This document shows, piece by piece, positions 376 to 64,000 of a stretch of 64,000 nucleotides of DNA. A program made the position numbers and the translations under genes. The stretch lies in contig OX621173.1 in assembly GCA_951640195.1 (NCBI GenBank), positions 1,777,780 to 1,841,779 of the forward strand. Direction: 5' to 3'. Source of the DNA: Porpolomopsis calyptriformis (taxonomy: Eukaryota > Basidiomycota > Agaricomycetes > Agaricales > Hygrophoraceae). Numbering within the stretch: the first letter of the stretch is position 1; each line of letters begins with the position of its first letter. The notes under the pieces are model-generated. The model saw only the letters and a program-made list of their open reading frames with translations, was not told where the DNA came from and ran no database searches.

Positions 376-2789
376 ATGAGCGGCATTTCTTTGGGTACCC
401 TCAACGCAAATCATGGTACAGTGAACTTAGCCGGACGTGATCAAGTCCATTATCACCTTTACCCTCCCTCAGCCCCAGGTCAGTCAGTTCAGTGATCACA
501 CTTTTCAATAATGCGAAGCAGATGCCATTTGAGTTGATTCGGCGGGTGACCTGCGTTTTATACTTGTTCGCAAGGCAAATCTTTCACGGCTCATCTCATC
601 TGCTTTCCAATCTGCTTCGCTTCACAGCAGAAAGTGTATATGAAAATTCCTTCTGACGTTGCTTGTGAATTCTAGGACCAGAGAACGCCAACCGTCAGTC
701 AGGCTTGCCCCAACGTATAAACGATGCTCCCATCGATCTTCTCTCGGCACATTTCACTGGAAGAGTGAAAGAACTCGATTTTGTAAATGAAGCGCTCAAA
801 AAACGCCCAACCAATCTACCAAGCCGTTGCGCTATTTATGGGATGCCAGGACTAGGGAAGACTCAATTACTATTGAAGTACGCAAAACTAGCATTCGAAA
901 ACCATTGGTACTCCCATATCTTCTGGACATCGGCTACTACCGTCGATAAGCTAAACCAAGGGTTTGCTAAAATTCTCGATCTCGTCGACGACCATGGCCG
1001 CTACCTTCAGGATCAGAGCGCGAAGCTCACGTCGGCAAGACGCTGGTTGGAAGGTTCGCACGGAGATGGCGATATCAATTGGCTTCTGGTCATTGATAAC
1101 GTTCACTCCGATGCACTGAGCTTTCTTCGCTTGCATCTACCTCGAAGTAATGCCCAAGGGAGCATTCTTTTCACCACACGGACGACTCACGTTGCTGAGG
1201 CTCTAACGAACGCGGCAGGAGTACAGTATCCGAAACTTGCACTTCAGACTTTGGACCTAAGAGACGCGACGAACCTTCTAGTCGGGGACGCAGGATTCGA
1301 TCCGGAAACCACATCACCATCGGTATTGAGCCAAGCCGAAGCGTTAGTCAAATGCGTTGGTCGTCTGCCTCTTGCAGTCGTCCATGCGGCGTCGTTCATC
1401 AAGCAAACGGGTACTACTTTAGGCGATATGCTCAAGTTGTATGACAATGGGCAAAAGATGAAAGTACGTTTATATCTACCACTTAGATCGAATGCAAACG
1501 TTTACATACACTGATAGATGATTCAATGGGAAAATAATCTAAATACTTACGAGGAGCGATCTGTCGCGGCCACATTTTCCAACCTATTCAATCAACTCAA
1601 TGATGAATCTCGCGATATCATCAATCTTCTGAAAGTTCTCTCATTCCTTGACCCAGAGAACATACCCGTGAAGATGATTGTTGAAGGGGCCAGGCGATTG
1701 TCAATTTCCGAGAATCCAGGCCCATTTGCCGACCCGTTACCAGTATCCCCCATTACCTCCACGTCGTCTTCGCTATCACCACCACCATTACCCAAGCTTA
1801 CCCCATTACGACGACTGAAAGAATGGGGCAAGCGTCATTCGCCATTGCGTCGCGCTGTTGAAACTGCAACTGACGACACCGGGCCGACATCTCGGATAGC
1901 TTCGGAATCCTCTTCACTGATTTCCTTAATTCTTTCGCCAATCGAGTTTCAACAAGCCATACAAAAGCTCAGCAACTTATCTCTGGTTGAACATCGACCA
2001 AATATCGGAGATTCTTCGTTGTGGATGCACGATTTGGTCCAATTCATGATACAAGAGTCTGCGAGGACAGAAGAAACTTATCGAAAATGGCTCCAACTAT
2101 CTGTGTCGCTTGTTTGTTTCGCTTTCCAACATATCGAAGATTACGAATCACCACAGTCATGGCCTGAATGCGAGAAACTCGTGTCGCATTTACGATCTCT
2201 GAACGAAGCATGGGATGACGCTTGTGGCTTCAATGAGGAGCTGACAGTGGCCAAGTTCAATACTGCAAAATATCTGTGGAGATGTGGACGATATGATGAA
2301 GCTGAGGAGTTGTATAAGAAGGTCGTTGAAGTGACGAACAAGTATTTAAGGGTTGATCACCCTTATACACTCGCCTCGATGGGCGGTCTCGCAGTGGTAT
2401 ATGAGTTCCAAGGACGGTATGATGACGCGGAAACGCTTCATAAACAGGTGTTAGCCACCAGGCGGAAGCTTCTAGGAGATGATCACCCCGACACACTCGT
2501 CTCCATGAACACTCTCGCATCGGTGTATAAGTCCCAAGGACGATACGACGACGCAGAGACGCTTCATAAGCAGGCGTTAGCCGGCAGGCAGAAGCTTCTA
2601 GGAGATGATCACCCTGGCACACTCACCTCCATGAATAATCTCGCATCTGTGTATGAGTCCCAAGGACGATTCGATGAGGCGGTTGCACTTTACAAGGTTG
2701 CCTTAGCTGGTTTTGAGAAGTGTCTCGGTAGTGATCACCCACGCACACGAACCATAGCTCATAATCTCTCTCAGCTACAAGCAAAGTAG
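376..2789 (+). CDS. NLR-1: NB-ARC/TPR STAND protein, 720 aa
   Basis: Three exons: 376-478, 676-1463, 1518-2789 (phases 1 and 0; total divides by 3). STAND proteins of this type are ATP-dependent switches that oligomerise on ligand binding, and in fungi they are linked to innate immunity and heterokaryon incompatibility. Exon 1 encodes a 34-residue leader with the motif VNLAGRDQVHYH. Exon 2 holds NB-ARC: P-loop GMPGLGKT (about residues 90-97), Walker B LLVIDNV (171-177), RNBS-B SILFTTRT (197-204), GRLPLA (263-268). Exon 3 begins IQWEN and carries a Pro/Ser-rich insert (about 360-410), the winged-helix LWMHD motif (MHD about 467-469) and four 42-residue TPR units of kinesin-light-chain type. 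It ends LSQLQAK. The ATG in exon 1 was chosen because the leader is conserved in the paralogues. There is no signal peptide, transmembrane segment or recognisable N-terminal effector domain. A GATAAAA stretch lies about 70 bp upstream of the ATG. Confidence 0.88.
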
Positions 2790-3300
2790 TCATTTATAGA
2801 TATTTCACGGATGGCCGTGTTTCACAGACGGCCGCGTTTCAGACACACACGATCGTCAATTCACTTTCTCATGTCCCCCTCATCCTCATCATGATCATGT
2901 CTGAAAAACCACTCACTCTCCCAGCCTTGCCTCGTTTCTCTTTAGGTCTTCGCTCTCTCCTCGTCCAGGTCGTCGTTCGGTTCAGAAACACGAATAATGC
3001 CGACGATTGGTCCACCTAGAGACGAACAGGAAAGACAAAGACTCCAAATTCCGCTTGATCTTGATCGAGTCGCGTATCCATCGCCTCGTTATTACACTGT
3101 AATAACAAGACGAAGCAGCAGATCCCCCGGACCTTCAAGTACGATTCGGCCACTGCTTCGACACTCATTGCATAATCGTCATGGTGCTGTCGTTGAGGGG
3201 GGAGATGTCACTATGCTTGTACATCCGCCAAGCTGATATTTCAATATAAATCTTATCCATAGGCCAAGATCACTGAGGATAACTCGGCTGTAAAACATAT
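2790..3300 (+). repeat. NLR 3'-flank repeat, type I (copy 2)
   Basis: This segment follows the stop of NLR-1 and recurs 3' of NLR-5 (28155-28560, partly diverged), NLR-6 (31850-32150) and NLR-8 (38470-39003). A short frame starting near 2899 (MSEKPLTLPALPRFS) is recognisable in all copies, but its downstream part changes frame between copies. It may be a small decayed gene co-amplified with the NLRs, or 3'-UTR sequence. I recognise no function. Confidence 0.7.
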
Positions 3301-3507
3301 GCATAAATTTATGGACTTGACATTATGGTACATATAAACAAAGCCAACACCAGCATTCGCGTAGTCCTCATCCTTTAAGCCAGATGAAGCACCACAGCAA
3401 CAGAAGGCTGAGAGCGACAGTATTGCATAGTAGAGTTCAACGCGGTATTTCCGAGTGGTAATCTGTGTAGCGGTAGCCGAGCCCGTCTTGGGCAAGAACG
3501 CTGCCGA

Positions 3508-62429: not shown

Positions 62430-62440
62430 TATATAAAAAT
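62430..62440 (+). promoter_or_regulatory. TATA-like box of NLR-9
   Basis: ctatataaaaa lies about 57 bp upstream of the NLR-9 start codon, in the same relative place as in NLR-6. Only sequence and position support it. Confidence 0.5.
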
Positions 62441-62496
62441 AGAATACTCATCTGGGCGCCTGTCGATTATCTCTTTTCCCCGCCATCACCCTCATC

Positions 62497-64000
62497 ATGA
62501 GCAACATTTCTCTCGGTACTCTCAACGCAAATCACGGTACAGTGAACTTGGTCGGACGTGATCAAGTCAATTATCACCTTTATCCTCCCTCAACCCCAGG
62601 TCAGTCAGTTCCATTTCGCTGACAGAAAGAGTATATGAACATTCTTTCTGACCTTGATTGTGAATTCTAGGTTCGGAGAACGCCAACCGTCAACTCCAAC
62701 GTATCAACGATGCCCCTCTCTATCATCTCTCGGCACATTTCACTGGAAGAGAGAAAGAATTGGAATTTATAAAGGAAGCGCTGAACACACGCCCAAGCAA
62801 TCTACCAAGCTGTTGCGCTATTTACGGGATGCCAGGACTAGGGAAGACTCAGTTACTGTTGAAGTACGCAACACTCGCATTCGAAAACCATTTGTACTCG
62901 CATATCTTCTGGACATCCGCTACCACCGTCGACAAGCTAAACCAAGGGTTTACTAAAATTCTCGATCTCGTCGACGATCCCAGCCGCTACCTTCAGGATC
63001 AGAACGCAAAGCTAACATCAGCGAGGCGCTGGTTGGAAGGGTCACATGGAGTTAGCGACATCGCTTGGCTTCTGGTCGTTGACAACGTTCACTCCGATGC
63101 ACTGGGTTTTCTTCGCTTGCATCTGCCTCGAAGTAACACCCGAGGTAGCATTGTCTTCACTACACGGACGGCTGATGTTGCTAACGCTTTAACGAATGCG
63201 GCGGGAGTACAGTATCCGTTACTCGCACTTCAGACATTGGACCTGACAGAGGCGACAAACCTTCTGGTTGCAGATGCAGGTTTCAATTCGGAAATCACAT
63301 CGTCGTCGGTATTGAGCCAAGCCGAAGCATTGGTCAATTCCGTTGGTCGTCTGCCTCTTGCCGTTGTTCATGCGGCGTCGTTCATCAAGCAAACGGGTAC
63401 GACTCTAGGTGATATGCTCAAGTTGTATGACAGTGGGCAAAAGATGAAAGTACGGTTATCTCTACCACTTACGTCAAATTCAAATGTTGATACACTGATA
63501 GGTAATTCAATGGGAGAATAATCTAAATACTTACGAAGAGCGATCTGTCGCGGCCACATTTTCCAACCTATTCAATCAACTGAATGACGAATCTCGCGAC
63601 ATCAGCAATCTTCTGAAAGTTCTCTCATTCCTTGACCCAGAGAACGTACCCGTGAAGATGATTGTTGAAGGCGCCAGGCGATTGTCAAATTCTGAGAGTC
63701 CAGGCCCATTTGCCGACCCGTTACCAGCATCCCCCATTGCCTCGACATCCTCTTCGCCACCACCGCCATCGTTACCGAAGCTTACCCCATTACGACGACT
63801 GAAAGAATGGGGCAAGCGTCATTCGCCATTGCATCGCGCTATTAAAACTGAAATTAACCACACAAGGCCGACATCTCCGATACCTTTGGAATCCTCTTCA
63901 CTGATTTCCCTAATTCTTTCGCCAATCGAGTTTCAAAAAGCCATACAAAAGCTCAACAACCTATCTCTGGTTGATCATCGACCAAATATCGGAGACTCTT
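62497..64000 (+). CDS. NLR-9: NB-ARC STAND protein, truncated by the window end
   Basis: Exons 62497-62599, 62671-63449, 63502 to beyond 64000. The leader is MSNISLGTLNANHGTVNL, then VGRDQVNYHLYPP, which combines the long form of NLR-1 with the VGRDQVNYH of NLR-3 and NLR-6. NB-ARC: GMPGLGKT, WLLVVDNV, SIVFTTRT, GRLPLA. Exon 3 is open to the window end: IQWEN, LLKVLSFLDPENVP, the Pro/Ser insert (PASPIASTSSSPPPP, then LRRLKEWGKRHSP) and the start of the winged helix (LSLVDHRPNIGDS). The MHD motif and TPRs lie outside the window. Confidence 0.85.

Follow-up and report, generated by a model that had tools for sequence, protein, structure and literature searches.

The 64,000-nucleotide stretch of Porpolomopsis calyptriformis DNA analysed here (the window) lies inside a cluster of 20 genes, G1 to G20, that combine an NB-ARC domain with tetratricopeptide repeats (TPRs). 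This cluster is rather probably a multigene family of nonself receptors of the nucleotide-binding oligomerisation domain (NOD)-like receptor (NLR) type, which would signal through a basidiomycete amyloid-like motif. As far as sequences can tell, it fits an NLR repertoire in which the TPR groove changes fast and the nucleotide-dependent switch and the signalling peptide are kept.

Nine of the genes are in the window, and all nine NB-ARC exons were recovered both by a Pfam search of the organism's own genome and by tblastn; six NB-ARC exons and five TPR exons were also scored individually with Pfam. The initial annotation, made from the sequence of the window, had described nine genes and at least three relics covering more than a third of the 64 kb. 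These numbers are confirmed, with three relics passing E<1e-3 and summed gene spans of 24,371 nt (38.1%). A fourth match, at 28407-28511, was not counted as a relic because it belongs to the sequence flanking a gene on its 3' side. Seven genes (10.5k, 20.7k, 26.6k, 31.2k, 34.7k, 38.3k and 41.5k) are on the minus strand, as had been described, but the row is not unbroken, since matches to ArgRS and UPF0220 and a weak F-box-like match lie between its first and second members. The whole cluster, found by tblastn with the exons of one gene (nine genes in the window and eleven on the fetched flanks), extends from C11:1,673,914 to C11:1,849,417, approximately 175 kb. It overruns the window by 104 kb on the left and by 7.6 kb on the right, so both window ends are inside the cluster, as previously supposed; however, the first gene (376-2789) is entire in the window and only the last one leaves it. 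Given that contig C11 has 1,921,241 bases, the cluster stops about 72 kb short of the contig end.

The genome (33.5 Mb, 17 contigs) shows 120 NB-ARC places in the Pfam search. Pooled matches from Pfam and from a query with a single NACHT protein of the same genome give at least 111 NACHT places, a lower bound as 80 of 242 candidates were scored. After removal of two overlaps, the total is at least 229 places. Clusters were defined by the 40-kb distance rule of PMC12258605 alone, without its rule on the number of intervening genes, and the largest have 20, 16, 13 and 10 members. When the 229 places were distributed at random 200 times, put anywhere and not confined to genes, and with guessed lengths for contigs C2, C6 and C8, the largest cluster had 4.6 members on average and nine at most; the 20-gene cluster is far beyond chance. 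Another cluster, at C14:446-511 kb, contains 10 NACHT places. A claim that NB-ARC is commoner than NACHT here, against the 1:8 ratio reported in PMC4986451, was dropped because more NACHT places may exist than were counted.

The NB-ARC domain scores above the Pfam curated cut-off in the six window exons submitted individually and in all nine by the own-genome search, and the gene frames of the window contain TPR matches of the kinesin light chain (KLC) type. The G13 protein contains the stretches GMPGLGKTQLL, LLIVDNV, GRLPLA and LWMHDL, which we take to be nucleotide-binding signatures. These proteins show two features of fungal NLR/STAND receptors: a nucleotide-binding domain with intact motifs and C-terminal repeats that form a superstructure. 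The gene plan has three exons: a short motif exon, a phase-1 intron (71-205 nt), the NB-ARC exon, a phase-0 intron (47-55 nt), and an exon encoding a winged helix and the TPRs. Full splice models without internal stops were obtained for 18 of the 20 cluster genes and for seven of the nine in the window, so the three-exon structure formerly attributed to all nine holds for these seven, whereas G11 and G17 have no complete model. G11 is the most divergent gene (57% to the reference NB-ARC); its exon 1 is recognisable at motif level and its exon-1 splice model is unfinished. Among the 18 modelled genes, G1 and G20 show an early stop within the TPR array, after which the TPR frame resumes. The predicted structure of exon 3 of G16 (pLDDT 83.7) consists of helix pairs, the first helix of which carries TPR positions 2, 9 and 12, and its closest solved structures are kinesin light chain TPRs.

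Exon 1 encodes 33-37 residues, leaving no space for a folded domain, and contains a conserved short motif, with the core V-N-L-V/A-G-R/G-D-Q in most copies and V-N-L-V-G-R-D-Q as its short conserved block. The ratio of nonsynonymous to synonymous differences (pN/pS) in 18 genes is 0.31 for this core versus 0.92 for residues 2-9. Three query variants (48, 103 and 9 places) locate the motif at 141 places in the genome: 136 merged from the first two variants and five new ones from the third. At 117 of the 141 it directly precedes an NB-ARC or NACHT domain: a same-strand NOD place lies downstream in 112 of the 136 (at 39-523 nt in the 110 with a listed distance), and the five places from the third variant, compared by hand, are all before NB-ARC places. 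The motif is directly upstream of 78 of the 120 NB-ARC places and 41 of the 111 NACHT places, so the two NOD types share it. The DNA of the other 24 places was read, and 22 are NLR genes or relics: an NLR-type signature follows in 21 (only a short one for L012 and L029), and L033 was judged by eye to be an NLR relic from NACHT-like and WD40-like stretches. L031 and L032 are isolated motif fragments with no NOD in about 500 nt downstream. L010 and L011, on contig C14, are NACHT/WD40 genes whose exon-1 motif is of the kind seen in NB-ARC/TPR genes. The NACHT-type relics L030 and L039, on contigs C1 and C9, match at 1098 of 1101 bases and share their broken frames, suggesting either that a gene already broken was recently copied or that the assembly contains a duplicate. 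Elsewhere in fungi, homologues start with similar peptides, among them proteins of Piloderma and of JGI metagenomes, and five homologue matches list a DUF7708 domain instead of such a peptide.

The 20 genes contain 122 TPR units of 42 residues above threshold, from two to 15 per gene, with about 70% identity at the protein level. Codon analysis of the 105 units scoring >60, G11 left out, gave an overall pN/pS of 0.46-0.47. Unit positions 9, 16 and 19 presumably correspond to canonical TPR positions 2, 9 and 12, in the numbering by TPR consensus residues. At these three helix-A positions, pN is 1.86 times the overall pS in the 1,359 pairs with at least 85% identity (1.54-2.14 by bootstrap over genes) and 1.38 times across the full set of 5,460 pairs, and local pN/pS is 2.1 (bootstrap 1.5-3.1); at the remaining positions pN is 0.36 of the overall pS in the close pairs (0.31-0.40). 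PMC1261162 gives 2, 5, 9, 12, 13, 33 and 34 as the most variable TPR positions, all on the concave face, and these seven, fixed beforehand, rank above the other 35 (Mann-Whitney p 0.016 in close pairs, 0.022 in all pairs). Diversifying change, by pairwise counting between paralogous repeats and with no codon model, is found at positions 2, 9 and 12 and not at all seven. Repeat identity is 78.5% of bases within genes versus 76.9% between genes, with the within-gene excess reached in four of 2000 shuffles. Concerted evolution within genes was rejected, as within-gene identity is barely above that between genes; the genes seem rather to draw their repeats from a common pool.

The median ratio of nonsynonymous to synonymous substitution rates (dN/dS), in gene pairs without G11, is 0.24 for the NB-ARC exon and 0.38 for the pre-TPR part of exon 3, and the dS values of these two parts correlate weakly (rho 0.37). 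Two sequence types are told apart by 56 diagnostic sites. Up to column 929, type A accounts for 40 of 42 sites in G1 and for 39 of 42 in G5, and from column 1219 type B accounts for 13 of 14 in both; in G12 and G18 the type changes several times. A tree-clade test of exon incongruence showed no conflict, both clades being present in the respective best trees, one weakly supported (46/98), so the evidence for mosaic genes is the arrangement of the diagnostic sites in spatial blocks. Judged from these blocks, exons are shuffled between copies and the exchange is frequent. In the part of the cluster outside the window, a 3.8-kb block, 96.4% identical, takes in the 3' end of each of G3 and G5 together with the flank downstream of it, and is the sole match of at least 95% over at least 700 nt in a 193.6-kb stretch. 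The proteins of G3 and G5, genes that lie some 66 kb and 54 kb to the left of the window, share an unusual tail. No near-identical pair of whole genes was found among the 20; the closest pair, G6-G7, has a dS of 0.05 in the NB-ARC exon, the lowest value, and of 0.16 in the pre-TPR part. Relics, early-stop copies, mosaic genes and the 3.8-kb block support the birth-and-death evolution proposed initially. The case for turnover being current is weaker than claimed, since even the closest pair has diverged to this extent.

Several known systems resemble this family. The Podospora anserina NB-ARC/TPR NLRs of PMC4986451 (Dyrka et al., 2014), whose repeats show positive selection and variation in repeat number, have the same combination of domains, variable repeat number and fast-changing repeat positions. 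They differ from the genes described here in that here 20 paralogues form one cluster, unit identity (about 70%) is under the 85% threshold of that study for high internal conservation, and a short motif takes the place of the folded N-terminal domain. The Podospora TPR-like structures 4y6c and 4y6w, also fungal, of KLC type and with nearly identical repeats, were both matched by sequence and 4y6c also by fold; they are PDB chains of 229 residues with TPR-like repeats alone, unlike the full receptors. Sordariales NLR genes also lie within 40 kb of each other, but in clusters of two to five and with 16 of 272 NLRs being paralogous copies according to PMC12258605, in contrast to the 20 paralogues that form one cluster here by the distance rule. 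No basidiomycete NLR cluster of comparable size was found in a literature search confined to open-access papers. PMC9815663 (Wojciechowski et al., 2022) describes amyloid-like motifs at the very N-terminus of Agaricomycete NLRs, and the exon-1 motif is likely one of them, likened by description and placement, not by profile. Its very N-terminal placement fits NLR05 and NLR22, which are short, usually very N-terminal, carried by NB-ARC and NACHT NLRs of Agaricomycetes and present in dozens per strain. Table 1 of that paper gives no neighbour and no effector copy for NLR05, NLR08, NLR22, NLR29 and NLR44, and the exon-1 motif likewise has no effector copy in the genome-wide count; it differs in occupying 141 places in one genome.

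In the proposed mechanism, the TPR superhelix would bind a ligand in its concave groove, and binding would open the NB-ARC switch, leading to nucleotide exchange and oligomerisation. Oligomers would gather many N-terminal exon-1 peptides, which could form an amyloid-like seed triggering a defence or cell-death response common to more than 100 receptors. The immune-like recognition suggested by the initial annotation is supported by the architecture and by the way in which the binding groove changes. Several observations weigh against the amyloid part of the proposal. Known fungal amyloid signalling motifs (HRAM, PP, sigma, PUASM) have a counterpart that ends an effector encoded by the same genome; such an effector-side copy was found at none of the 141 places, although a diverged copy or a motif in its own small exon could escape. 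The frame upstream of the motif is open for only 1 to 94 codons in all 24 places without a listed NOD, so no motif ends a long frame. The own-genome search gave HeLo at one place and MLKL_N at one place, both frames lacking the exon-1 motif, with one loose match elsewhere in the MLKL_N locus. Goodbye and DUF7708 were found at no place, but their absence is unproven, as control genomes gave no match either; the HeLo and MLKL_N searches likewise gave none in the control genomes, and no model specific to the BaMLKL family of PMC9815663 was used. Against diversification of the groove, the four remaining predefined positions rank 10, 15, 21 and 34 of 42 in close pairs, and strongly variable positions (-1, 22, 27, 30 and 31) lie outside the predefined set. 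Moreover, repeat pairs are non-independent, positions 2, 9 and 12 were chosen with the results in view, and pN at individual sites can be raised by gene conversion.

The lack of an effector-side motif would also be expected if the exon-1 peptide simply served docking or oligomerisation and recruited a single common partner, with no need of a partner copy and no amyloid seed, and the shortness of the conserved block and its presence in two NOD types agree with this. We hold this to be a real but minority possibility, since in PMC9815663 the Agaricomycete-group motifs fit an amyloid grammar, and a beta-arch prediction is passed by about half of the instances of NLR08, NLR22 and NLR29 (28% for NLR05, none for NLR44). 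In two genomes of that study, moreover, N-termini of NLRs and C-termini of BaMLKL proteins have patterns in common, of which none was found here. Somewhat less probable is that the genes serve allorecognition, with alleles that vary from strain to strain and bring about heterokaryon incompatibility, and not the sensing of other organisms. The architecture is of a kind tied to fungal nonself recognition (PMC4986451) and the groove is fast-changing, yet 20 paralogues in one genome suit a receptor repertoire equally well as allelic polymorphism. A mostly neutral expansion by unequal crossing-over of housekeeping or scaffold proteins resembling kinesin light chain appears improbable. It would account for the top solved-structure matches, the relics and early stops, and repeats nearly as alike between genes as within them, but constraint on the NB-ARC domain and the motif, together with faster-than-silent change in the helix-A groove, is unexpected of neutral copies.

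The features of the window are listed in Table 1. Among the top named matches listed for the HMG-box gene, the closest are Agaricomycetes: Serpula (64%), Suillus (55-67%) and Plicaturopsis (65%).

Table 1. Receptor genes, relics and neighbouring genes in the window (coordinates of the window; exons in order of transcription).
Feature	Position	Strand	Description
NLR gene G10	376..2789	+	exon 1 motif 376-478; NB-ARC exon 676-1463; winged helix and 3 full TPR units 1518-2789
457-codon open frame	4470-5843	-	no Pfam match
NLR gene G11	6747..10563	-	exon 1 motif ~10563-10450; NB-ARC 10275-9535; TPR exon 9479-6747, 15 units
ArgRS, UPF0220, weak F-box-like match	11144-16894		between two receptor genes; Pfam
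Relic, NB-ARC exon	13558..13797	-	P-loop degraded; 43% identity, E 1.1e-12
NLR gene G12	17397..20686	-	exons 20686-20590, 20449-19674, 19619-17397; 10 TPR units; mosaic of two sequence types
Relic, 3' end of TPR exon	23124..23222	-	87% identity, E 7.3e-12
NLR gene G13	23870..26583	-	exons 26583-26481, 26275-25500, 25450-23870; 5 TPR units
Relic, pre-TPR segment	27137..27262	-	50% identity, E 1.7e-5
NLR gene G14	28564..31179	-	exons 31179-31077, 30893-30118, 30069-28564; 5 TPR units
NLR gene G15	32151..34734	-	exons 34734-34638, 34497-33722, 33674-32151; 5 TPR units
NLR gene G16	35386..38329	-	exons 38329-38227, 38064-37280, 37230-35386; 7 TPR units; exon 3 structure predicted
NLR gene G17	39007..41577	-	NB-ARC exon 41428-40682; TPR exon 40632-39007, 6 units; degenerate exon 1 near 41556-41494
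HMG-box gene	41700-42767	+	adjoins the NLR row; conserved in Agaricomycetes, where some relatives bear the name Repressor ROX1
Plavaka-type transposase match	54755-55903	+	inside the receptor cluster
NLR gene G18	62497..64000	+	exons 62497-62599, 62671-63449, 63502-; passes the window end to +1307 nt; mosaic

The kind of receptor described here is already known, and what stands out is the size of the cluster and the missing effector side. With more than 100 receptors of two NOD types carrying one N-terminal peptide without an effector twin, it is a minority possibility that many sensors form a network onto one unrecognised partner, or that the assembly of the peptide is itself the executioner. 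If so, the signalling logic would be unlike that of ascomycete and bacterial amyloids, in which receptor and effector are paired. The recognition and signalling targets of Agaricomycete NLRs are a question still posed in PMC9815663. The restriction of the exon-1 motif to NLRs in this genome makes it a sharper question what its partner is. The cluster of 20 paralogues with a measurable groove signature provides defined loci and positions for tests.

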